Positions 10,090 to 39,746 of a stretch of 46,863 nt of DNA are shown here, piece after piece. The notes below the pieces were generated by a model that made no database searches, was not told the origin of the DNA, and was given only the letters and a program-made list of their open reading frames with translations. The translations under genes and the position numbers were made by a program. The stretch lies in IMG/VR virus record IMGVR_UViG_3300043409_000405, positions 1 through 46,863 of that record, one strand, 5' to 3'. How positions within the stretch are numbered: the first letter of the stretch is position 1; each line of letters starts with the position of its first letter. This stretch comes from a virus.

Positions 10090-10168
10090 TGGTGGGGCTG
10101 TGCGGGACTCGAACCCGCATTTGATGGTTTATCAACCCATCGTTCTATCCAGTTAAACTAACAGCCCC
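10090..10168 (-). tRNA. tRNA, probable Ile (anticodon GAT), 8-bp acceptor stem
   Basis: A full cloverleaf can be drawn on the minus strand. The acceptor GGGGCTGT (10168-10161) pairs with ACAGCCCC (10101-10094), followed by A73 and an encoded CCA. The D arm is GTTT/GAAC with A14, GG and A21. The anticodon loop is TTGATAA, and the T arm GCGGG-TTCGAGT-CCCGC is perfect. The GAT anticodon, with A37, A38 and A73, fits isoleucine. Two oddities stand out: the acceptor stem has eight pairs instead of seven, with position 8 (T) and 9 (A) still canonical, and the last anticodon-stem pair is G31-A39. It is the first element of the leftward late transcript. Confidence 0.85.
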
Positions 10169-10257: not shown

Positions 10258-10614
10258 GTTGCCGTAGGCAACAGCAGAACAGCAGAGATGTAACAAGATG
10301 TAACAGTAGTAGCTATTAGGGTTTATAGGTAGTATTTTATATATATATAACTAGTTATATCTATAACAGTAGTTATATGTTCTTTTATAGGTATTGTTGT
10401 TTATATACAACAGTTATTACTATAAGTAGTAACATAACAACATATACCTCCCCTATATTATAAAACTATATAAATCGTTATAAGGTACTATATATAATAT
10501 ATATAAGCATGCTTTTTGCTCCCCCCTACCCCTAAATATAGTCAGGCTGTACTGTGAGTGAGCACTCACCCCTCCCCCTAACATGTTGTATTGTTGGGTG
10601 TTATAGCACCAACA
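10258..10614. other. AT-rich divergent control region with palindromes (possible origin or promoters)
   Basis: No gene is seen. It holds a 6-bp hairpin GTTGCC/GGCAAC at 10258-10272, two tandem AGATGTAACA at 10286-10305, and a long TA-rich stretch (about 10320-10510). Within the latter are a perfect 16-bp palindrome at 10345-10360, AGTTATAT twice (10353-10360, 10371-10378) and TGTTGT/ACAACA arms at 10395-10412. After a C-rich patch come inverted repeats GTGAGTG/CACTCAC (10554-10569) and TGTTGGGTG/CACCAACA (10592-10614). An easily melted segment between two divergent units would suit a replication origin or early promoters; neither is demonstrated. Confidence 0.45.
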
Positions 10615-10620
10615 TAGTGC

Positions 10621-10637
10621 ATCAGTCACTTACTGAT
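10621..10637. repeat. Short inverted repeat
   Basis: ATCAGT and ACTGAT form a perfect 6-bp stem around CACTT. It stands at the left edge of the sparse zone (10615-10790), in which I see no gene and only weak pairing possibilities. Confidence 0.4.
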
Positions 10638-10790
10638 TCAATTGGTATCGTTATCTCCCCCTGAATCTACACTTCAACCCAATACCTAAGCCAAGGCTAA
10701 TACCAAACTTCAAGGTCAACACCTAACGTCAACAGGCAACTGCTACGCAACCTCTCACTCCTCAGGCAGCGAGTGCGATACCTGCTCTTC

Positions 10791-10859
10791 GCTCAACACC
10801 AACTGCAATCGCTCGGGCGGTAACAGGGCTAGGCGTTGCTCAACACCAACTTCCATCGC
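10791..10859 (+). repeat. Direct repeat of about 22 bp, two copies
   Basis: The segments starting at 10791 and 10838 share GCTCAACACCAACT followed by a near-identical CATCGC/AATCGC tail (20 of 22 positions by eye), 47 bp apart. A shorter TCAACACC also occurs near 10717. Purpose unknown; they lie at the 5' edge of the structured region and could be protein-binding iterons or part of the RNA. Confidence 0.6.
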
Positions 10860-11456
10860 AAGCCAGCCCATCGCCCGCTGTCCATCGGGTCACACCTGCG
10901 GGCCACACTCCACGGGCAAGTGGCTTCCCCGCCCAACATCGGGCGGGATCAGCCTCATGTCCCGTGAGTGCGGGGAATCTCCTGTGTTCCGTAGGGGATT
11001 CGTCCGTGCACGAGCGTACTTTCCCTTCCAGATGCTCAGTCAAGGGTCAGTCCACGCGACTTACATGGCCGCCTTCGGCGGAGTTGTCCACGCCCACATA
11101 CACCAACACCGTGGGCTACCGGCTCGTCAACTTTCCCGTTGGGAAAGTTAAGACCGCGAGCCTGACAACAGGTCTTGGCACTCCGAGCCTTTCGGCTCGG
11201 GTGACTTCGGTAGTCCAACTACGGACTACCTACGAGTAGCCGCTGGCTGACCGTGGGTGGCAAGCCAGATTCCCCAAGTCGGGCCAGCAAGCTGGCCTTG
11301 ACTTGTTAGCTGCTCCGCAGCTGGGGAATCACCCCGCTTGCCCTTCCACGACTCAACTCGCGTTGCGAGTCTCGCCCTTGACAAGAGCATCAGGAAGTGA
11401 GTACTTCGTGCCCCGTCGAATTCCCCTACTACACTCTGTAGGGCGAACTGATCGAC
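10858..11456 (+). ncRNA. Candidate large structured non-coding RNA or early leader
   Basis: No plausible protein gene occurs here, but helices are dense. Paired segments are 10928-34/10941-47; 10975-82/10994-11001 with one U-G; 11023-27/11042-46; 11069-73/11077-81; 11121-26/11157-62 enclosing a perfect 9-bp hairpin 11129-37/11141-49; 11183-89/11194-200; 11209-16/11223-30; and 11243-48/11263-68. A three-way junction closed by 11268-75/11323-30 holds hairpins 11276-80/11300-04 with 11282-87/11292-97, and 11308-13/11317-22. Then come 11356-61/11365-70, 11394-98/11403-07, and 11415-19/11452-56 enclosing 11424-29/11438-43. G-U pairs favour the plus strand. It ends just before the ribosome site of the first early gene. 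Its ends and function are not known; large ornate phage RNAs such as GOLLD and ROOL are the nearest concept, without claimed homology. Confidence 0.55.
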
Positions 11457-11483
11457 ACCTTGTAGTCTTTTAGGAGCATTGCT

Positions 11484-11744
11484 ATGACCACGCAATCGTT
11501 TGACATGAAGAAGGCTGTTGCTGAAGTGCCCGGCCCGCTGGCGTTCTGGATGGGGCTGTCGATGGTGAAGGCGGCAACCGCCAATGCTTACAGCTACAAC
11601 AAAGACCGCTTCGAGAAGCTGGCAGCGATCTGCGATGAACTGCAAATCATCGCTAACGAAATGAAGGCGGAGAAGGAGCAGCGGCTTAAGGCGGCTGCTG
11701 ACCGCACCGCACAAGCAGCGGCAATTGCGGCTGGTAAGGCGTAG
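11484..11744 (+). CDS. First early gene; small helical protein of unknown function
   Basis: The 86-residue product starts at ATG 11484, with AGGAG at 11471-11475. It has a short hydrophobic segment (GPLAFWMGLSMVKAATANAY, about 17-36), then a helical E/K-rich part and an Ala-rich tail (TAQAAAIAAGKA). Composition is more GC-rich than in most early genes. It is the first gene after the structured region and is followed by a GAAA-capped hairpin. Early first genes of lytic phages often act on the host, but nothing here identifies a target. Confidence 0.75.
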   Translation: MTTQSFDMKKAVAEVPGPLAFWMGLSMVKAATANAYSYNKDRFEKLAAICDELQIIANEMKAEKEQRLKAAADRTAQAAAIAAGKA

Positions 11745-11753
11745 TAGAAGCAG

Positions 11754-11777
11754 AGGGGGTGGCGAAAGCCACCTCTT
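11754..11777 (+). other. GNRA-capped hairpin after first early gene
   Basis: AGGGGGTGGC and GCCACCTCTT pair over 10 bp with two G-U pairs around a GAAA tetraloop. The loop and G-U pairs point to plus-strand RNA. No T-run follows, so a processing, stabilising or pausing role is more likely than strong termination. A second weak stem GCCC/GGGC follows at about 11786-11802. Confidence 0.6.
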
Positions 11778-12207: not shown

Positions 12208-12213
12208 AGGAGA

Positions 12214-12231
12214 GGCCAGCGAAAGCTGGCT
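12214..12231 (+). other. GNRA-capped hairpin
   Basis: GCCAGC-GAAA-GCTGGC is a perfect 6-bp stem with a GAAA loop, extended by one G-U pair. It lies 7 bp after a stop codon and is followed by TTCTTCCTC. It could be a weak terminator or an mRNA-stabilising hairpin on the plus strand. Confidence 0.6.
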
Positions 12232-12259
12232 TCTTCCTCATTTAGCCCTAAATCCAAGG

Positions 12260-12383
12260 GCAAGCCTCGGCCACGGTAGTACTGTGGCCTTCGTCTTGCT
12301 ACCACCCATAAAGGTAGAATAAGAAAGTGGGTTGGGCGCGTCGCCCACCCCGTTCCGGGGTGAGGGCGGGCGTCGCCCCCAAC
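12260..12383 (+). ncRNA. Structured intercistronic element, copy A
   Basis: Two composite hairpins precede the gene at 12399. Hairpin I has an outer stem GCAAG (12260-64)/CTTGC (12295-99) and inner stem GGCCAC (12269-74)/GTGGCC (12284-89). Hairpin II has outer GTTGGG (12331-36)/CCCAAC (12378-83) and inner CACCCCG (12346-52)/CGGGGTG (12356-62) with loop TTC. The arrangement is repeated in diverged form at 12714-12825. A leader or translation-control RNA is inferred. Confidence 0.55.
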
Positions 12384-12398
12384 CTGAGGAAATTTAAC

Positions 12399-12611
12399 AT
12401 GATGACTAATATCTACCTCATTACAGCGTTCATCAAAGATGTTAGCATTATCCTATTGTGCATCCTAGTACTCGGATACGTTACAGGTCGCGTTGAAGAG
12501 TTTACACCCTCCCGCACAGCTCTCATCGAAGAGCAAACCGGGTGCCATACCGATACCGAGTGCGAAGAAATGGAGGATTACCTTAATGCTCACAACATCT
12601 ACAGGATGTAA
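12399..12611 (+). CDS. Small single-pass membrane protein
   Basis: ATG at 12399 is preceded by GAGGA at 12386-12390; an upstream in-frame start at 12327 lies in the structured element and is rejected. The 70-residue product has one clear membrane helix (YLITAFIKDVSIILLCILVLGYVTG, about 5-29). An acidic cytoplasmic or periplasmic tail with two Cys (GCHTDTECEEMEDYLNAH) follows. The 3' end is duplicated in tandem (12599-12624). The role is unknown; an early membrane protein affecting the host envelope or superinfection is possible. Confidence 0.7.
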   Translation: MMTNIYLITAFIKDVSIILLCILVLGYVTGRVEEFTPSRTALIEEQTGCHTDTECEEMEDYLNAHNIYRM

Positions 12612-12624
12612 CTACAGGATGTAA
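12599..12624 (+). repeat. Tandem 13-bp duplication over a stop codon
   Basis: CTACAGGATGTAA occurs twice in tandem. The first copy encodes the last codons and stop of the membrane protein, and the second copy supplies the AGGA before the ATG of the next microprotein. It seems a simple slippage-type duplication. Confidence 0.85.
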
Positions 12625-12625
12625 C

Positions 12626-12703
12626 ATGGGTAAAACAACAGAAAACTGGATTATGTTTATATTAATAGTAGTTCTTGCATTTACTATTTGCTTTGTATTA
12701 TAA
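12626..12703 (+). CDS. 25-residue membrane microprotein
   Basis: ATG at 12626 follows AGGATGTAAC. The product MGKTTENWIMFILIVVLAFT... is a short polar start and one hydrophobic helix of about 17 residues, ending ICFVL. A phage membrane peptide is plausible, but no homology can be claimed at this length. Confidence 0.45.
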   Translation: MGKTTENWIMFILIVVLAFTICFVL

Positions 12704-12713
12704 AGCTCCCATA

Positions 12714-12825
12714 GGCAAGTCCCGCGCCCGTCCGGTGGCCGGTCACGGGTCTTGCTTCTGTGTTCTTAAGAACATAGAATGTGGTCGTCGGTCTCGGCCC
12801 GCCCCATTCGGGGCGAAGGCGGGCC
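12714..12825 (+). ncRNA. Structured intercistronic element, copy B
   Basis: It is arranged like copy A. Hairpin I has outer GCAAG (12715-19)/CTTGC (12751-55), inner CCCGT (12727-31)/ACGGG (12745-49), and an apical CCGG/CCGG. Hairpin II is GGCCC (12796-800)/GGGCC (12821-25) enclosing GCCCC/GGGGC (12801-05/12810-14) with loop ATTC. Aligning hairpin II with copy A shows an A-U pair in A replaced by a G-C pair here, and the inner stem of hairpin I differs in sequence but keeps pairing. It precedes the gene at 12862. Confidence 0.55.
12756..12779. promoter_or_regulatory. 24-bp palindrome with core TGTTCTTAAGAACA
   Basis: The 14-bp core (12761-12774) is a perfect palindrome, extended outward to 12-bp arms with one mismatched pair. 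It sits between the two hairpins of copy B. The same core occurs at 14357. It is a candidate operator or a cruciform-type site. Confidence 0.5.
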
Positions 12826-12861
12826 TCGTCCTCCTCTTAACCGTTGAAAAGGAAGAATAGA

Positions 12862-12984
12862 ATGGACAAGCTAGCTAGCCTCAAGGAGTTGGTGGAGCAG
12901 TTTGAATCCGGCTTGATATCTGAACATGAGTTTTGGATGGCCGCAGTAGTACTTGCCGATCAAAACTATAGGAATACAATGTGA
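12862..12984 (+). CDS. 40-residue early protein
   Basis: ATG at 12862 follows GGAAG at 8-9 bases. The product MDKLASLKELVEQFESGLIS... is acidic and helical (HEFWMAAVVLADQNYRNTM at the end). The segment resembles short helix-turn-helix-like SHOCT-type sequences (L-x-x-L-x-x-x-x-E-x-G-x-I-x-x-x-E-F), an uncertain comparison. Its stop overlaps the GTG start of the next gene (ATGTGA). Confidence 0.6.
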   Translation: MDKLASLKELVEQFESGLISEHEFWMAAVVLADQNYRNTM

Positions 12985-13295
12985 GTACCTACAACGTACT
13001 CAAGCTTAATAACATGTGCTGCATTGCACCATGTGTTGATGGTGTTCGTGATGATCTCTTTGAACTTGGTGTTCGTATTCATGTCTATGATACAACCCTG
13101 TTTGACGCACAAAATGTTGTAGCTAATCTTTGGAATGATGAGATTGAGCACTACAATTACATAGAGTTTATTGATGCTGTTCTAGATGGCTTAGAACGGG
13201 AGCCGGGATGTGCTGTTAAAGTCCAAGGAACAAAGTGGGTTTTACCAACCACATCGTTTGATTTAGCAACTGAACGTAAAAGAGAGGTGTATTAA
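12981..13295 (+). CDS. Hypothetical early protein
   Basis: The GTG start at 12981 overlaps the preceding TGA; TAGGA lies about 8 nt upstream. The 104-residue product begins MSTYNVLKLNNMCCIAPCVDGVRDDLFELG, with three Cys close together at about 13-18. It is acidic overall, with a helical segment YNYIEFIDAVLDGLEREPG and a basic end. No family is recognised. It is part of the run of small, coupled early genes. Confidence 0.6.
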   Translation: MSTYNVLKLNNMCCIAPCVDGVRDDLFELGVRIHVYDTTLFDAQNVVANLWNDEIEHYNYIEFIDAVLDGLEREPGCAVKVQGTKWVLPTTSFDLATERKREVY

Positions 13296-15632: not shown

Positions 15633-17417
15633 ATGATTACTAATTCCATAGAAGTAATGAAGTACGTTAAAGCCTCTGCCGGGAGAAGCAAACTGTCTGT
15701 TGTCTTTGAAGATGAGAATCATCCCCGGCATAATGGTTCTACTATCTTTCTACCCAAAATCACTGTTCACACTACCAAAGAACAGTTACTGGAGATGATG
15801 TCTAGTGTTGACCACGAAGTAGGTCATGATCTGGACAGTGACTTTGAGATTCTCAAAGAAAAGGGTATTGATGCTTCCAGTAGTCCCTTAGGACTGATCT
15901 GGAATCTCATAGAAGACTCAAGGGTTAACTACCTTCAAGCAATAGAGTACGAAGGTTTTAGAGAACTCTGGGAGAAAACAACACCAGCTCTTCTGGAAAA
16001 GATAGAAGTATCAACCAAGACTGCTGGGGGGGTTAACCCGCTAGTCAGAGCTATGATGAAGTGGGAAACTGAGTTGTCACGTAAGACGTTCCCGCTTTGT
16101 GCAGAACAAGTTCGAGAAATGGAAGTTGATGACAGCATTCTCAAAAAACTAATTCCTTTCTCAGACAGATTGATGGATGTCCAACGAATTAAACCCAAGG
16201 TTGCTGGTACCAAGGGTGCTTATGAGCTTGCTCGGGATATTTTCAGGGCATTAGGTGGTGATCCTGATGAAGAAGAACGCAAAGCAAAAGAAAGAATGGA
16301 AAAAGAAGAAGGAACACCCACAAAAGGAAAGGGAACACCACTAGAGCCGGGTAAAGAGAAAGGAGAGAAGGAAGGAGAAAAGACAGAAGGAGAGGCAGAA
16401 ACAGCAGAAGGAGATTGGTCTGTTGTTCGTATTACTCTTGAAGACCTGAAAGATGTTGCAGACAAACTTCTTTCATTAGATACGGTGGATCGTAAAAAGA
16501 TGTCAAAAGTAGGTTTGCTTTATGACGTTGATGTGGAAGAAACTGGTTGGTCAATGACTCCTCTAGAAAACTTTATGGTTGTGGATTACTGCAATGGAAC
16601 AACATCCCATAGTGAAGTTGCCTCTCTGCTATCTAGTGCAGACAGCGCGTGGTTCGTCGCCAGTCTAGAAGAAAAAGCCCACGTAGAGGCACAAGATAAC
16701 TTTGCAAATCAAGTTAGAAAGCTGATCCAAATACGAGCTAAATCTACCTTTGAGTACGGAGTTAAGCGGGGTAAGTTGGATTCAAGCAGGTTAAGTAGAA
16801 TTGCTCTTAGACAACCGGGTTTTAGTGAGCGTGTGTTTAAGAACAAAATAAACAACACAGTGTTAGATGCTTCAGTAAGTGTCTTGGTGGACATGAGTGG
16901 TTCAATGAGTGGTCAGAAAGTTCTTTATGCCACTCAAGCAGCGTTGTTACTTAACAACGTATTCCAAGTAATCCAAGTCCCTTTAGAAATTATTGGGTTT
17001 ACGGATTATGGTGACCGCCCAATACAGTACCTGTACAAACCATTTAGCAAACAAAAAGTACCCAGAGAACAATTGCTTGATTATTTTGCTGCCTCCTCTA
17101 ATAAAATGGCTGGAAATCCAGATGGGGATAGCATTATATGGGCTTTTGACCGTATAAAGAATAGGCCAGAAAAGAAGAAGCTGTTGATTGTGATGTCTGA
17201 TGGGCAACCTGCTGCAAGCAGATCTTCTAGGGGCCTAGGAAAATTTACTCGACAGGTAATAAAGGAAATTCAAGCCTCTAAAGTTGAAATATATGGTTTG
17301 GGGCTTTGTGATGAGTCTGTGTCAATGTTTTACACTCATCACTCGACAGTAAAAACAGCAGAAGAAATACCTCAAAAACTGCTAGAACTTATTGATAGGA
17401 AATTATTCCATGTCTGA
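15633..17417 (+). CDS. CobT/NorD-like VWA-domain protein with HEVGH motif
   Basis: The 594-residue product has three parts. At the N-terminus HEVGH (61-65), followed by NLIEDSRVNY (91-100), forms a zinc-peptidase-type HEXXH plus downstream acidic motif. A Lys/Glu-rich low-complexity linker spans about 210-260. A C-terminal VWA domain starts near 410 with the MIDAS motif DMSGS (420-424) and a later IVMSDGQPAAS. VWA proteins paired with MoxR-type ATPases remodel or metallate targets, e.g. CobT of cobaltochelatase and NorD (family knowledge). The next gene overlaps it by 8 bp and encodes that ATPase. The target here is unknown; a B12 link is speculative. Confidence 0.75.
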   Translation: MITNSIEVMKYVKASAGRSKLSVVFEDENHPRHNGSTIFLPKITVHTTKEQLLEMMSSVDHEVGHDLDSDFEILKEKGIDASSSPLGLIWNLIEDSRVNYLQAIEYEGFRELWEKTTPALLEKIEVSTKTAGGVNPLVRAMMKWETELSRKTFPLCAEQVREMEVDDSILKKLIPFSDRLMDVQRIKPKVAGTKGAYELARDIFRALGGDPDEEERKAKERMEKEEGTPTKGKGTPLEPGKEKGEKEGEKTEGEAETAEGDWSVVRITLEDLKDVADKLLSLDTVDRKKMSKVGLLYDVDVEETGWSMTPLENFMVVDYCNGTTSHSEVASLLSSADSAWFVASLEEKAHVEAQDNFANQVRKLIQIRAKSTFEYGVKRGKLDSSRLSRIALRQPGFSERVFKNKINNTVLDASVSVLVDMSGSMSGQKVLYATQAALLLNNVFQVIQVPLEIIGFTDYGDRPIQYLYKPFSKQKVPREQLLDYFAASSNKMAGNPDGDSIIWAFDRIKNRPEKKKLLIVMSDGQPAASRSSRGLGKFTRQVIKEIQASKVEIYGLGLCDESVSMFYTHHSTVKTAEEIPQKLLELIDRKLFHV

Positions 17418-18609
17418 CCTCAGTACTAAATCCCTTGGCGAACTACTTAAGGAAAAGATTATGACCTCACCAGTACCTATTACTCCTGCTCCCATTGAAG
17501 ACTTGGTTAAATCCGCAATCAAGGATGCTTTGGCTAAAAGGGCAGTAACAGAAGGAAAAGAGTTTGTACCTGATGACGCAACTATGGCTTCTTTGGAAGC
17601 TATGGAAAAGTCCTTGGTACCTCCTCCCACACTACCAGTTGTTCCCGTACACACTCTGAAAGACGGTCAAGTATGGGCTTCAGACCTCTTTAAACGAGTT
17701 ATGAGCATATCCAAGAAAGATGACTTCCCTGTCTCAATCTTCAAACCTGAGGATTTTGATGAGAAAATCAGGATGTTTATACCTAAAGTTGATCCTACTT
17801 ACGTTCTTGATAAAAAGAACAGCATCAACATCCTGAAAGCATGGGAACAGAATGACAAAACATTGCTCTATGGCCCGACAGGTGCTGGTAAGAGCAGCCT
17901 TCCACAGATGCTGTGTGCTTACGTCTGTAGGCCGTTTTTTCGTATTAACTGTACTGAAGACATGGATAGTTCAATGATCTTTGGACAGTTGACAGCTTCT
18001 GATGGTTCTACTCCTTGGGAAGATGGCCCTGTTACTGAAGCTGTAAAGTACGGTGCTGTGTTTGCTTGGGATGAGTGGGATGTTACCCCTCCGGGTATTG
18101 CAATGGGTCTCCAGTGGCTTCTGGAAGACGATGGCAAGCTCTTTTTGAAAGAGAAGCCGGGAGCTGCCAAGGACAAGTTTATTGTCCCAGATAGCAAGTT
18201 TCGTCTTATGGCTCTTGGTAACACCCAAGGTCAAGGTGACGACACTGGGCAGCATACAGGTACCAACGTACAGAACACAGCTACCATTGACCGCTTTGGT
18301 ACTACGCTCCGCATCGGCTATATGAAAGAAGATGTGGAAGTGAAGATGCTCTGTGGCAAATTTACTGATCTTGCTAAAGAAACTGTCCTTAAGCTTGTAA
18401 GGTTTGCCAATCTGGTTCGTCAAGGTTATACTACTAATCAGTTGAACCTTACCATGTCTCCAAGGTCTACTATTGGTATTTGCAAGAAGTTGTCGTATGG
18501 TCACACCATGCAAGAAGCAATCCAGCTTACCTACACAAACAAACTGGTGGAAACTCACCAAAAGGTAGCACTGGAACTGTATCGTAAAGTGTTTGGCTCG
18601 GCTGAGTAA
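17410..18609 (+). CDS. MoxR/CobS-like AAA+ ATPase
   Basis: ATG 17410 is preferred over a TTG at 17392 because AGGA lies at 17397-17400. The 399-residue protein has an N-terminal extension of about 120 residues. Then come Walker A GPTGAGKS (155-162), Walker B with AVFAWDEWD (Asp221-Glu222) and a sensor-1 region RLMALGNTQ (Asn271). Layout is that of the MoxR branch including CobS and NorQ. It overlaps the VWA gene by 8 bp, indicating a complex. CobS partners CobT and CobN in cobalt insertion; phage CobS-like genes are known, but function in phages is not settled. Primase follows 2 bp after the stop. Confidence 0.8.
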   Translation: MSDLSTKSLGELLKEKIMTSPVPITPAPIEDLVKSAIKDALAKRAVTEGKEFVPDDATMASLEAMEKSLVPPPTLPVVPVHTLKDGQVWASDLFKRVMSISKKDDFPVSIFKPEDFDEKIRMFIPKVDPTYVLDKKNSINILKAWEQNDKTLLYGPTGAGKSSLPQMLCAYVCRPFFRINCTEDMDSSMIFGQLTASDGSTPWEDGPVTEAVKYGAVFAWDEWDVTPPGIAMGLQWLLEDDGKLFLKEKPGAAKDKFIVPDSKFRLMALGNTQGQGDDTGQHTGTNVQNTATIDRFGTTLRIGYMKEDVEVKMLCGKFTDLAKETVLKLVRFANLVRQGYTTNQLNLTMSPRSTIGICKKLSYGHTMQEAIQLTYTNKLVETHQKVALELYRKVFGSAE

Positions 18610-33823: not shown

Positions 33824-34071
33824 TAGTACGTACCTCCTTCTAAAAGAGTGGTGTTCTTAATAACATCTTTCTTAGTTATACCCAACATCCAACTGCACAG
33901 ATCTCCTTTATGAAGGCCCGACTGAATTTGAAAAAGAGACCAATTGGGACGCACAGACCACTCCAAAGGCCAAGTCTCACTGTTTCCGTTAGTGATGCAA
34001 TTACCATCCATATACATAGCATGTCCGAATCCATAAAACATATCCTCCGTAGGGTTAACATTCATAATCAT
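33823..34071 (-). CDS. Small hypothetical virion-region protein
   Basis: The start ATG 34071 overlaps the stop of the 1,892-residue gene. The 82-residue product [20 protein letters not shown]... is aromatic and Gly/Asn-rich with [10 protein letters not shown] and [22 protein letters not shown]. It resembles small proteins before phage fibre genes, which may bridge internal proteins and fibre. It overlaps the fibre start by one base. No domain is recognised. Confidence 0.6.
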
Positions 34072-37000
34072 TCCCAGCCACGTTCTCTGGCTTTATCTTT
34101 ATACTTTTTAATAACTTCTTTTTGTTCTTTAGATCGTTTACTTCTTTCTAGTTTTTTCTCTGCGGCAGTTTTTCCATAGATAGGAAAGCCCATAGTGCCA
34201 GAAACGGCGCGGCTCACTCCTTCTCCCTCGGGAGCATTTACTGCTGCGGAAATTTGAAATGGCAGAGCACTTTTTGCAATTACTCCTGCCCTATTAGCCA
34301 AGGAGGGGTCAACAAGCTTAGGAGCATATGGGCTAGCATACTCTAACCCAGTAAGTCCCGTAATAGCAGCTTTAGGAAGAAACCCTAACTTGTTTGTAAG
34401 AGTAGAAACAGGATCAGATAACCAGTGATATGGTTCCATAGCGTGTTTCATGGCTTGCATACTGGTGCCATCTGGAAATTCTATTCGTGTGGGATCTTTG
34501 TTCTCCCAAATTGGGCGATTAGCCGTAACCATATTGATGGCATTCAACAGGGTAAAGTATAACAGAGCAGTTTTAAACTGGTACAATCTAGCATAGTCAG
34601 CTTTGGTAGTGGGGTTTACCATCCCCTTAATACCCTCTATGGGGTGCCAGTCTTTAGGGTTAAGTTTTTCAGGAAGAGCTGAAGTAAACGCTTTAATGGT
34701 AGATATAGTCCAGTCTGGAGCAAACAAAACCATCTGAAGATTCTTACGACCTTGAGGAGAGAACGCAGCCATAGACATACGTTTACCAAACTCTGTATTG
34801 GCTTTTGATGCTTCTTGAAACCAGTTAAGACCACCAAAAGACCTGTTGATAAACTGGGTAATCTCTGCACGAGCAAGATCTTCATTAAATTCTTTACCAC
34901 TCTTCATGGCATCTAGGCGTTGTTTCTCAAGGTATTTGTCTGCTGTATAGAGTTTTCCTCCTGTGTGCAAAAAATCCCAAGTAATCTTGTCAAAGATTCC
35001 TAGAGTATTCTTTTCTACAAATGAGAGACTTGTTTCCAAAACCCTAGTCTTGGGGCCGTATTTACCAATCATACTATCCCCAAACTTACCAGCACTAGCA
35101 AGAAGTCCCTTAGTGACATCTTCAGGAACTTCTAGAACAAGTCCAGATTTGATCCACTTGTCAGTACTATCCCCAAGTCCACCTTCTTTAAACCGAGCAA
35201 CAGCCTGAGTTATGCCAGACATCTTGGTACCAAGTATCTTGTCTGCTATACCTAAAGTAACTTCCTTAGCTGGAGTCCATAGTGGTACGTGAGCACTAGA
35301 TAACACTTCCAGAAGACTCTTAGCGTGGAAGAAGGAACCAATAACGTTTAGGCGTTTAACTCCCTGTGAGACTGTATAAAGGGCATCTACAGCTTTATTG
35401 CCTCTAGCCTCAAAAGCAAACTTTAGGGCAGGAGCCAAGTCCGGGTGTACAGCAAACCCAGCAAATTGCCTGTCCACAATCATCTCCCACCCACGGGGCA
35501 TGGGGTCTTCTTCAGTAACCCTCTTAACCAAAGACTCCCCAGCAACGTTACGAATGCCCCTTACACTATCTATAAGTTTTTTATTTTCAATGGCCTTTTC
35601 CATAGACAGGGCATACTCTTTATAGATCTCAGCTACGTCTGTGGTCTTGATCTCAAGCCTAAAGTCTTTGCCAGCAGCAGAGATCTTGTCATTAATCCAT
35701 CCAAGAGTTCTTTCTAAGTTTTCAAAGGTATCTACTTTACGCTCTTTACCAAAGCGACTCTCGGGAGTCATGCCACCAGCACCAGTGCCCTTCTTGCCAA
35801 ACAGCTCTCCAAGTAGTTCTTCCAAGGCCCCCTTGGGCATATCTTTCCAGTTGACGATGTGGGTAACATAGTTTTCAAGCAAACCATTAACCACACCCTC
35901 CTTAACAGCCCTTTCACCTATATCCTTCATAGCAGTTTGGTAACGATCAGCCAGTTCTTTAGCCGGGCCAGTAAGTTTATCAGCTTCACCCTTATCAATA
36001 GCCCGAGCCACTTCTTCCCGGATGTTCTTAGGAGCAAGTTCCATCATTTTATGAGCTTCGTTGTGAATGATCCGCTCATTAGCCATCTTGGTGTTAAGGT
36101 TCATGCCAACAAACTTCTCAACCTCTTTGACTGGTTCTGCCCAAGTGCCTTTATACTTCTTCCAATCTTCAAAAAACTTCAAAGCAGCAGCCTCACCCTG
36201 AGAAGCATAGATGTCTTCAGCATGTTTCATAAATGCTGCTTCACTACTAATAGAACGGACATCAATACCCTTAGCAGCCTTCTTGACTTCCTCAGGGAGG
36301 ATTTTAGAAGCTGCTACAGGGCCACGATCTTTATCTTTGGAGCCTTCGAGCCGGGGAGCATTGGGATCATAATCTTCCCAAGGAGCTGGTTTACCTGCCT
36401 CCTCTTGCCTTCTTTTTTCTCGGGCTTCATTGGCTTTGAATTGGTCTTCCCCTCCACCCGGCTTAAAGTAGTTTTTAAGATCTATTCTGGCCTGTTCTCT
36501 CATGTCAACTCTATCCGAGTTAATGAGAAGGTCTTCTAAAGAAGAGTATTCTTTGCCGACGGATATGCCACCCTCCTCAGAGTATTGCATCCACTTGCCA
36601 TCTCTAGACTCAGATACTTGGTCTGACCAGATCATACCAGTACCAGCCTCATATATTTTTTCTCCGTCATATCCTACTTTCTCTGGACGGTCTGGGCCAT
36701 CTTTCGCCCTTCTCCAATTTTTAGGATCTAGGTATTGGTTTGCTTGGTGGTACTCCATTAGTATCCGATTAAACCAAGGATCTTTGCTTGAGTACTCATT
36801 TAACGTTTGGTCTTTAGCTTCTTCAGGGAGGATCTTAGAAGCTGATACAGGGCCATTAGAGTCTAACTTAGTAACTTCCTTTTGGGAAGAAACTAGAACA
36901 GGCTTCATGTCATTTTGAGCATCCTTAACAAGCTTCCCTAAAGAATGTTCTTTGTACTTGTCAGCATGAGCATCTCTTTGCTTAGTAATACTATCCGCCA

Positions 37001-39746
37001 CCTTGGACAACATGTTAAGTTCAGCACTAGTGGGCCACCCCCGCCCCTCCTGCCGACCCATAGACTTAATTACTTCTGTGTGTTTGTCTCTAAGTCTCAT
37101 GTCTTCCAGCAAGCCTTCTTTGTCAAAGCCTATTATAGAGGTTCTTTTGGCCTTACCATCTAGAACGTCTTGATCTGATCCAACTTCTTTGATTGCTTTA
37201 GAAGCCGCAGGTTTGTTAGGTTTAGCCCCATCAACAGGCACCTTCTTGATTTTGTCAAACTTCATGTTCTTGCTCTCTTCAATGAGGCCACCAGCAATAT
37301 CCATAACCTCATCAAGAGCCGTCTTGGTGTTATTCTTAAGAGCCTCTACTTCAGCGTGTTGTTCTTCAGTCTTAGCGTCCCTACGAAGCTTTGCTATGAT
37401 CTCCTCATGGACGATCTGCTTAAGCTTGTCCCAGAGATTGGTAGTCTTTGTCTCAAAGGCTTCAGTAGACTTAGTTGTTTTGAGGTGTGCCTTGAATTTG
37501 TCGTTGTTCATGGCCTCAGTCACAAACTCTTGGGCATTGTCAAAGCCATACTCAGCCCTAGCTTCTGGGGAAGCACTAGCCTTGTGCATCTCGTACAGGG
37601 TATTCATCTTCTGAGCCAAAGCGGATTGGTTGTCGTGCATAAGGTGCCACACAGCAGCATGGGTAGCCTCATGCAGAACAGTCTCAAAATCCCCTCTCTG
37701 TCCAATCTCAACCCTGTGGTTGTCGGAGTGGTAAAGTCCCCGAGCAGATCCAGTTTTACCGTCATCAGTTCTGTAGGGAATAAGATCCTTACGGAGCTGT
37801 AGCGATGCTTCATTAACAAGGTTACTAGTGGCAAGCAGCTTGGCAAACCACTTCTGACTTCTGGTTCCAATGCCAGACTCTTCAATCTTCTTTAAAGCTT
37901 CACCAACAGTTTTAGCTTTGTATATAATGTCATGTACTTCTTCCCAAGCAGGGTTTTCAAGATTGTCAATTTTAGGTTTGGGCAAGTTTTCAAGAAGTTT
38001 GTCCCTTTCCAATGTGTATTGGTCAATCTTAGCTTTCAATTCTTGTATACGTAGACTGGCCTCACTCCTTTGCTCAAGAAGTTGAGTACGCTTTTCGTCT
38101 AGTTCTTTTTTCTTTGCCCTAGTATTTTCATCTTGAGGAAGTTTTGCTAGTTCAATGGTTTCTTTAAGAGCTTGGTCGTACTCATTAGAAGCTTTCTTGA
38201 GGGAGGTAGTCTCTATGGCTTCATCTATGTCAAGGTAGTACATATCATCTTCTATAATTTCAATGCGATCCTTGTGCTCTTCTCTAGTAACTGGAGCCTT
38301 GTTGTTAGAAGTAGTAGGGGGTTTTTCTTCTACCTTAAACCTTTCATCTCCAACCTTACGGAGATCATTACTATGCAATCCAACTTGTCCATCCGTAGGG
38401 GTCTCTAGCACATAATCTTCAGGAAGTTGTCCAGACTTACGGGCTTGAGCATCAGCTTCTGCTCGGGTATAGAACCTACCGCTAGGGTCAACAAAGCCCG
38501 GCTCAAGGTCTGGGTTAGCCTTGAGTTCATCAGGGTGCTTGGGGCCAGTCTTAAGGATGTTACCATCAGGGTCTCTAAATGCAGTCTCAGTAAGAGGAGC
38601 CTTATCCTTAACCCGATCTAGGAAGCTCTTGCGCTCTTCATCAGAGACAGTAGGTTCTGGAGGAGACTCTTTTTTATTACTTTTCTTGGTTAGTTCTGCT
38701 ACACGACTTTGTATTCCAGCCACTTCATCCATGCCTATATCACCAGCAAGATCATCAGCGAGCTTAGTGTACTCTTTAAATTCTTGAATCTCTTTTGGTG
38801 TATATCCTCTCAGTTTAGAAAACTCCGAAGTATCCCCTCTATCAACACCTTCTTCCCACGCTTTCTTAAGTTCAGGAGACCATGTTTTAGGATCACTTTC
38901 TTTTTCTTTGGACATTGTTTTGTGCGCTAAGTCTACAAACTTAACAATTTTATCTTGCACAAGCTTAGTATGCCCAGCATAGGGCTTTAGTACATCTTCT
39001 ATGTGGGTCTCTGACAACGGCTCCCAGTAAGACTCCACTTTGGGGGTTTCTGGCTTCTTTGAGAAGGCTTGACCGATCTTGTTTACAGCGGTTCTACCCG
39101 TACCAATCATCTTCTCACCAAGGGCTGTGGGCCTTCCCAGCATACCCGAACCTACATCCAAAGCTATATCACCGGGGCTAAGTACATCCTCCCCTTGTAC
39201 AGCCCTCATACCAGCACCAACACCACCCATGATGGTACCACCTAGAGCAGCTTCTGCAACAGTCCTAGGAAGCCCTACAGCCATCCCCGGCCCTATCAGG
39301 GTACCTGCCGCAGTACCGATCTTGCTTGTCCACGGGAAGGCCTTATCCTGAGCAGCTTTGGTTTCCATAATCTTTGTACCAAAGACTGAATCTGAAAGTT
39401 GTTCTAGAGAGGTAATTCCAAGATGCCCCAACATCCCACCAGCAATAGCACCAACAATGCCACCCACCGGAGCCGCGTAAGGCAACTTAGTCTTAGCCCC
39501 TAACTCAGCACCAGCCCCAGCACCTGCTAACATAGTAGGAATAGTGCCAGCACCTTCAGCTAAGGCTCTATTGAAGGTACCCATCTGAGATACCTCAGGC
39601 CCCTTTTTAGGCGCATCTAAACTGCCTAAAGGTTCTATGGATTTAGAAAAACTTTCAGCCCCAGCTGACATGGGAACTTCAGGCTTCTCATCGTCCCAAA
39701 CAATCTTAGAGGTTTTAGGGGGAGCATCATCCCAAACAATACCCAT
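34068..39746 (-). CDS. Giant internal virion/ejection-type polyvalent protein with HEXXH
   Basis: This 1,892-residue protein is the largest gene. The N-terminus has WDD repeats (IVWDDAPPK, IVWDDEKPE). Glycine-rich hydrophobic segments at about 75-115 and 150-190 could insert in membrane. HEATH at 692-696, in VLHEATHAAVWHL, matches zinc metallopeptidases. Helical charged regions follow, including two ASKILPEE repeats near 965 and 1145. The C-terminal third has a hydrophobic segment near 1718-1740. T7 gp15/gp16-like or polyvalent proteins are injected with DNA (family knowledge). Its place after two other internal-type genes fits ejection. A protease acting on cell wall or host proteins is possible but unproven. 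Confidence 0.72.
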   Translation of the reverse strand: MGIVWDDAPPKTSKIVWDDEKPEVPMSAGAESFSKSIEPLGSLDAPKKGPEVSQMGTFNRALAEGAGTIPTMLAGAGAGAELGAKTKLPYAAPVGGIVGAIAGGMLGHLGITSLEQLSDSVFGTKIMETKAAQDKAFPWTSKIGTAAGTLIGPGMAVGLPRTVAEAALGGTIMGGVGAGMRAVQGEDVLSPGDIALDVGSGMLGRPTALGEKMIGTGRTAVNKIGQAFSKKPETPKVESYWEPLSETHIEDVLKPYAGHTKLVQDKIVKFVDLAHKTMSKEKESDPKTWSPELKKAWEEGVDRGDTSEFSKLRGYTPKEIQEFKEYTKLADDLAGDIGMDEVAGIQSRVAELTKKSNKKESPPEPTVSDEERKSFLDRVKDKAPLTETAFRDPDGNILKTGPKHPDELKANPDLEPGFVDPSGRFYTRAEADAQARKSGQLPEDYVLETPTDGQVGLHSNDLRKVGDERFKVEEKPPTTSNNKAPVTREEHKDRIEIIEDDMYYLDIDEAIETTSLKKASNEYDQALKETIELAKLPQDENTRAKKKELDEKRTQLLEQRSEASLRIQELKAKIDQYTLERDKLLENLPKPKIDNLENPAWEEVHDIIYKAKTVGEALKKIEESGIGTRSQKWFAKLLATSNLVNEASLQLRKDLIPYRTDDGKTGSARGLYHSDNHRVEIGQRGDFETVLHEATHAAVWHLMHDNQSALAQKMNTLYEMHKASASPEARAEYGFDNAQEFVTEAMNNDKFKAHLKTTKSTEAFETKTTNLWDKLKQIVHEEIIAKLRRDAKTEEQHAEVEALKNNTKTALDEVMDIAGGLIEESKNMKFDKIKKVPVDGAKPNKPAASKAIKEVGSDQDVLDGKAKRTSIIGFDKEGLLEDMRLRDKHTEVIKSMGRQEGRGWPTSAELNMLSKVADSITKQRDAHADKYKEHSLGKLVKDAQNDMKPVLVSSQKEVTKLDSNGPVSASKILPEEAKDQTLNEYSSKDPWFNRILMEYHQANQYLDPKNWRRAKDGPDRPEKVGYDGEKIYEAGTGMIWSDQVSESRDGKWMQYSEEGGISVGKEYSSLEDLLINSDRVDMREQARIDLKNYFKPGGGEDQFKANEAREKRRQEEAGKPAPWEDYDPNAPRLEGSKDKDRGPVAASKILPEEVKKAAKGIDVRSISSEAAFMKHAEDIYASQGEAAALKFFEDWKKYKGTWAEPVKEVEKFVGMNLNTKMANERIIHNEAHKMMELAPKNIREEVARAIDKGEADKLTGPAKELADRYQTAMKDIGERAVKEGVVNGLLENYVTHIVNWKDMPKGALEELLGELFGKKGTGAGGMTPESRFGKERKVDTFENLERTLGWINDKISAAGKDFRLEIKTTDVAEIYKEYALSMEKAIENKKLIDSVRGIRNVAGESLVKRVTEEDPMPRGWEMIVDRQFAGFAVHPDLAPALKFAFEARGNKAVDALYTVSQGVKRLNVIGSFFHAKSLLEVLSSAHVPLWTPAKEVTLGIADKILGTKMSGITQAVARFKEGGLGDSTDKWIKSGLVLEVPEDVTKGLLASAGKFGDSMIGKYGPKTRVLETSLSFVEKNTLGIFDKITWDFLHTGGKLYTADKYLEKQRLDAMKSGKEFNEDLARAEITQFINRSFGGLNWFQEASKANTEFGKRMSMAAFSPQGRKNLQMVLFAPDWTISTIKAFTSALPEKLNPKDWHPIEGIKGMVNPTTKADYARLYQFKTALLYFTLLNAINMVTANRPIWENKDPTRIEFPDGTSMQAMKHAMEPYHWLSDPVSTLTNKLGFLPKAAITGLTGLEYASPYAPKLVDPSLANRAGVIAKSALPFQISAAVNAPEGEGVSRAVSGTMGFPIYGKTAAEKKLERSKRSKEQKEVIKKYKDKARERGWE

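Follow-up and report, generated by a model that had tools for sequence, protein, structure and literature searches.

A covarying double-hairpin element between small early genes in a phage clade from aquatic metagenomes

Two copies of a double-hairpin element of about 125 nt are present between small early genes in the window, i.e. the whole stretch of 46,863 nucleotides analyzed here, which is a 46.9 kb virus record. Copy 1 is at positions 12260–12385 and copy 2 at positions 12710–12831. Both belong to a previously uncatalogued family that has no Rfam entry, and the element is found at the same kind of intercistronic site in dozens of related phages. It keeps its shape while its bases change and thus has a job in the phage. 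The family, which has been seen only in one clade of phages from aquatic metagenomes, is a covarying nucleic acid that is reused one to three times per genome whatever gene follows. A tentative reading, given a probability of about 0.4, is that it is a boundary element of the early polycistronic mRNA and acts by RNase III-type cleavage, by leaky 3′-end formation, or by both.

The terminase of the window displays 46–54% identity to those of two annotated phage records, Caudoviricetes sp. MW202796 and Alcaligenes phage vB_Af_QDWS535, and at least 66% identity to 80 IMG/VR loci. The early genes are on the + strand from position 11484 in an operon of about 19 kb; the terminase and other virion genes are on the opposite strand. 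A tRNA-Ile (GAT) is found on the late strand at 10090–10168, adjoining the terminase genes, and a 1892-aa open reading frame at 34068–39746 gives no Pfam or PHROGs match.

The two copies in the window

Each copy consists of hairpin A, a linker and hairpin B. The outer GCAAG/CTTGC stems that were pointed out in an earlier note on this sequence form the base of hairpin A in both copies (12260–12299 and 12715–12755). The parts and their neighbors are as follows.

12260–12299, + strand: copy 1 hairpin A, with the GCAAG/CTTGC base, an internal loop, GGCCAC..GTGGCC and a 3-nt loop
12300–12316, + strand: copy 1 small linker hairpin (TACC/GGTA), variable in the family
12329–12385, + strand: copy 1 hairpin B, GC-rich, with a GA bulge on the 3′ side
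12399–12611, + strand: 70-aa membrane-like open reading frame downstream of copy 1
12626–12703, + strand: 25-aa open reading frame ending 6 nt upstream of copy 2
12710–12762, + strand: copy 2 flanking helix P0, CATAG (12710–12714) with CTGTG (12758–12762)
12715–12755, + strand: copy 2 hairpin A, with the GCAAG/CTTGC base, CCCG/CGGG, an inner stem and a 3-nt loop
12756–12779, + strand: copy 2 linker hairpin, TTCTGTGTTC-TTAA-GAACATAGAA
12783–12831, + strand: copy 2 hairpin B, core GGCCCGCCCC..GGGGCGAAGGCGGGCC at 12797–12824
12862–12984, + strand: 40-aa open reading frame downstream of copy 2, overlapping a 104-aa open reading frame at 12981–13295

The distance between hairpins A and B is 34 nt in both copies. 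The spacer described in the earlier note is present, but it holds a small variable hairpin, and in copy 2 this linker hairpin competes with P0. The A-U pair of one second hairpin that is a G-C pair in the other is confirmed, with ACCCC/GGGGU in one copy and GCCCC/GGGGC in the other. A paired inner stem is likewise found in copy 2; however, it is better drawn as CCCG/CGGG plus CCG(U)CC/GG(C)CGG with a 3-nt loop than as CCCGT/ACGGG. The latter pairing is probably shifted by one register, given the perfect CCGUCC-GUU-GGACGG of the relatives.

The ATG starts of the following genes are at 12399 and 12862 as described, although the 40-aa frame that begins at 12862 is absent from the nearest relatives, where the gene after copy 2 is the 104-aa one; L083 and L082 lack the frame. 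Pfam and PHROGs searches with the 70-aa sequence gave no family. A separate hairpin with a GNRA loop (GGCCAGC-GAAA-GCTGGC) is located at 12208–12238, directly after a 97-aa open reading frame and directly before copy 1.

The folding energy of each copy is better than that of every dinucleotide shuffle (z of −3.9 for copy 1 and −4.3 for copy 2). Among 354 segments scanned on the + strand, which is the early strand, the two sites rank third and fourth by fold score and are outranked only by the leader at 11121–11360. By themselves the two copies are a weak case, which the relatives decide.

Family membership and conservation of pairing

Sequence searches show further copies in the related loci L002, L003 and L008, and a search with the stem pattern shows more in distant relatives. 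In 1.3 Mb of relatives, a first covariance model, built from eight of these copies with the window left out, has 31 good matches on the early strand. With filters off, it places the window copies at ranks 1 and 2 within the 3 kb around them (E = 0.001 and 0.004). A second model (R2), also made without the window, scores them at 26.2 and 24.6 bits (E = 0.02 and 0.05 in 1.3 Mb); the E-values of the models come from a short calibration. The best unselected score in a negative control of 765 kb, mostly of loci outside the clade, is 19.8 bits. Locus L124 in the control set (23.0 bits) had been preselected for matching the pattern. The copies in L008 score 17 bits, at which the model alone cannot separate them from background, and those in L007, L008, L010 and L155, being at or below the background of the model, were assigned by sequence likeness and position. 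A covariance search of this genome and its relatives, which the earlier note had proposed, therefore finds family members in the relatives and recovers both copies in the window.

The element is confined to the clade in the collections searched. Rfam 15 shows no match to either copy or to the elements of eight short relative loci at gathering or relaxed thresholds; elsewhere Rfam gives only sub-threshold chance matches, and in the window it finds no family besides a tRNA. A DNA search of phage records with the element gave no match. Whole-record searches with an E threshold of 0.5 per record match the element in 24 of 29 records; neither of the two annotated relatives, MW202796 and OK172329, gives a match. 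A pattern scan of all IMG/VR contigs detects hairpin A in its most frequent form exclusively where a contig carries the early genes of the clade. A second pattern scan, for hairpins like those of copy 1, yields 79 stretches; the element is present only in those from clade contigs, and the others appear fortuitous. Among 84,980 bacterial and archaeal genomes, the first pattern occurs five times, scattered over unrelated phyla, which is approximately the chance level. Within the clade, L019, which has a short early region, shows no convincing copy.

The covariation alignment is derived from 47 matches including two antisense artefacts, i.e. 45 members from one phage clade. Standard pairs occupy 92.0% of pair cells (76.6% when shuffled), and 21 of the 28 predicted pairs show double changes. 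There are 178 double-changed cells compared with 41 in shuffled alignments, and the covariation score is 0.372, against 0.108 for shuffled and at most 0.070 for slid alignments. Because this alignment was fitted to the model, alignment-free tests were added in which the arms of helices are swapped between elements. Matched and swapped arms give −6.7 and −4.5 kcal/mol for P0, −20.8 and −15.6 kcal/mol for hairpin A, and −24.7 and −20.6 kcal/mol for hairpin B, and for each helix none of 2000 permutations reaches the observed value. These figures are strong but are not exact probabilities, as sequences of common descent are not independent of one another. Selection on the paired structure of the element across the clade is strongly supported. 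The expectation in the earlier note of further copies whose changes keep the pairing is thus borne out in the 45 aligned members.

The conserved features are the helices and their spacing, not the loops. Hairpin A has an invariant GC-CG base and a variable inner stem, and nearly all members have a 3-nt loop of any sequence. P0, an extra helix that flanks hairpin A, is present in many members, copy 2 among them. In most members hairpin B has a GGG/CCC base; it is interrupted by internal loops or by a GA bulge and ends in a GC-rich tip. The linker is 25–26 nt long in 38 of 45 members and its sequence is variable. Conserved unpaired columns are few and mostly adjoin helices, and the conserved unpaired bases of a binding pocket, which would mark a ligand-binding riboswitch, are not found in the family. 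A reading of the CGCUC repeats as lambda boxA was set aside, as by inspection they are explained as a symmetric internal loop of P0.

Position and history of the element

In most members the stop codon of the upstream gene is 10–20 nt before the start of the model (hairpin A) and the next start codon is 14–42 nt past hairpin B. The gene that follows is not conserved; it may be the DLVDEM, MTLFYI, MGLDMYL or 97-aa gene or a membrane open reading frame. Genes neighboring the element have been exchanged around it, and its orientation relative to the genes is always the same. Three copies in L155 split the early genes into blocks of small genes; the window, L008 and L067 have two copies each.

The earlier note described two diverged copies. 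Both are real, but they are not a recent duplicate pair, as each resembles a different element in other phages. The nearest kin of copy 1 are in L008 and L007, hairpin A being 86% identical across 42 nt to the L008 copy. Copy 2 resembles the orthologue in L002 and L003, the nearest relatives, which have no copy 1. Thus the two copies have separate histories.

Possible function

The earlier note suggested selection on RNA. The selection on pairing stands, and action at the RNA level is likely, because the element lies between a stop codon and the next start and because a U-rich run usual in members follows hairpin B on the mRNA strand only. The 8 nt after hairpin B contain 5.1 U compared with 2.5 at matched places before other genes, and this run favors a function at the mRNA level. 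Counts of non-Watson-Crick pairs (7 GU and 11 AC, GU being no commoner) give no signal for either strand. In 45 of 49 elements, the two window copies not among them, the complementary strand is the one with the more stable fold. Since GU pairs and AC pairs are rare to about the same degree and folding is usually more stable on the opposite strand, there is room for a function at the DNA level. A palindrome of this kind would serve as a recombination joint at which early genes are swapped or as a replication signal, or would consist of hairpins matched by template switching, and the exchange of genes beside the element and the good folding of both strands are consistent with it. However, the confinement of the U-rich run to one strand and the constant orientation argue against it, and conserved internal loops and lengths would not be expected from arm-correcting mutation, so that this reading is quite improbable.

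A boundary in the early mRNA fits best, because the element displays shape without loop sequence, lies between stop and start, occurs in several copies and is indifferent to the downstream gene; few conserved loop bases are expected if the shape is what is read. The two long imperfect hairpins would fold in the gap between the stop codon of a small gene and the start of the next, and would act most likely by their shape. The upstream transcript would thereby acquire a stable 3′ end and be set apart from the message that follows. An endonuclease of the RNase III type may cut the long duplexes, or transcription may terminate leakily at hairpin B in members with a U run behind it, and both routes could operate. 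If the element makes transcript ends, it would show how a long early message could be divided up by phages that do not evidently encode an RNA polymerase, and the family offers dozens of natural variants.

RNase III recognizes extended duplexes, and its sites in the T7 early region are single hairpins. Hairpins A (with P0) and B are long imperfect intergenic duplexes and in this respect resemble such sites, although the extended duplex is a weak criterion and RNase III processing at the element is a candidate only. Like the T7 sites, the element forms long imperfect hairpins at the boundaries of small early phage genes. Unlike them, it has two hairpins, a near-constant linker and an invariant GC-CG base, and its cleavage is putative. 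RNase III releases the early RNAs of T7 from a large precursor, as PMC5371410 states in citing Dunn and Studier (1973). Several observations weigh against the boundary reading: neither the fixed linker nor an invariant stack of base pairs would be required by RNase III, hairpin B of copy 1 is not followed by a U run, termination scores are positive in few members and negative in the window copies, and the GU and AC counts do not favor the mRNA strand.

The intrinsic-terminator score is above 0 in 11 of 48 members and near the threshold in many, with a median of −6; the control median is −82 and none of 103 controls is above 0. The window copies score −33 and −38. Like an intrinsic terminator or attenuator, most members have a GC-rich hairpin followed by a U-rich run. 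The element differs in having internal loops near the base, an interrupted U run (none in copy 1) and a gene start within 42 nt. Hairpin B as a regulated terminator, controlled by P0 or by linker pairing, would agree with the U-rich run and with the overlap of the P0 3′ strand and the linker hairpin. This is doubtful, as the window copies score as non-terminators and the linker helix is not conserved, its pairs being kept in only 72% of cells and its middle pair failing in 26 of 45 members. A switch by way of the linker hairpin was rejected for the same lack of conservation. It is also unlikely that the element is a 5′ control element of the downstream gene, in which structure and a U-rich standby site before the ribosome-binding site set translation or protect the 5′ end. 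The start codon is close to hairpin B and the gap is U-rich, but the ribosome-binding site lies outside the conserved helices, the downstream genes are unrelated, and the element is as near to the upstream stop codon as to the downstream start.

Two long imperfect hairpins at a fixed spacing on the newly made early transcript, whatever the genes are, recall the put RNA of HK022, which also forms two long stem-loops in early transcripts and is about 70 nt, with adjacent stems and base-specific polymerase contacts (PMC9378689). The paired hairpins of a put-like element would bind the host RNA polymerase while they are emerging and change how it pauses or terminates along the early operon. The element, however, is about 125 nt, its hairpins are about 25 nt apart, and its loops are variable with few conserved bases, whereas many single mutations inactivate put (PMC9378689). 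The second covariance model finds nothing in HK022 25–40 kb; put is unannotated in that record, so that only dissimilarity to this stretch is indicated. Several copies per operon would be unneeded, the strongest intrinsic terminator of the relatives is upstream of the element, not downstream, and no intrinsic terminator is found inside the early operon of the window before 30804. With terminators upstream or absent, antitermination is unneeded at the visible sites, i.e. intrinsic ones as distinct from Rho-dependent ones, and a put-like role is improbable. There is a similarly small likelihood that the element represents a new class of bipartite phage RNA read by shape, a repeatable early-gene module whose hairpins at a fixed distance dock on the host polymerase or on another host factor and so control early transcription.

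The canonical terminator of the relatives (GGTAGTAG..CTACTACC plus a T run) lies immediately behind the first early gene in L041 and about 20 others, at about 900 nt ahead of the element. The matching place in the window (about 11754–11773) has a hairpin without a U run. The PeSL cassettes of T4-type phages are reportedly stem-loops between exchangeable early genes that carry an early promoter. The element resembles them as a stem-loop cassette between exchangeable early genes. It differs in that no promoter was identified, and members often have no room for one, starting 10–20 nt after the stop codon; a simple promoter-consensus scan of the window showed no + strand site within either copy.

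Downstream of the element, at 15633–18609 of the window, a CobT-like VWA gene is followed by an AAA-type ATPase gene, presumably similar to CobS or MoxR, and the pair is conserved in the clade. Ahead of the first early gene the window has a long, GC-rich and apparently non-coding leader (10600–11480). No part of the scanned region has better local fold scores than its segment at 11121–11360, with z of about −6 on both strands, and the relatives have a varying but paired hairpin immediately before the first early gene. The leader may be another structured RNA.
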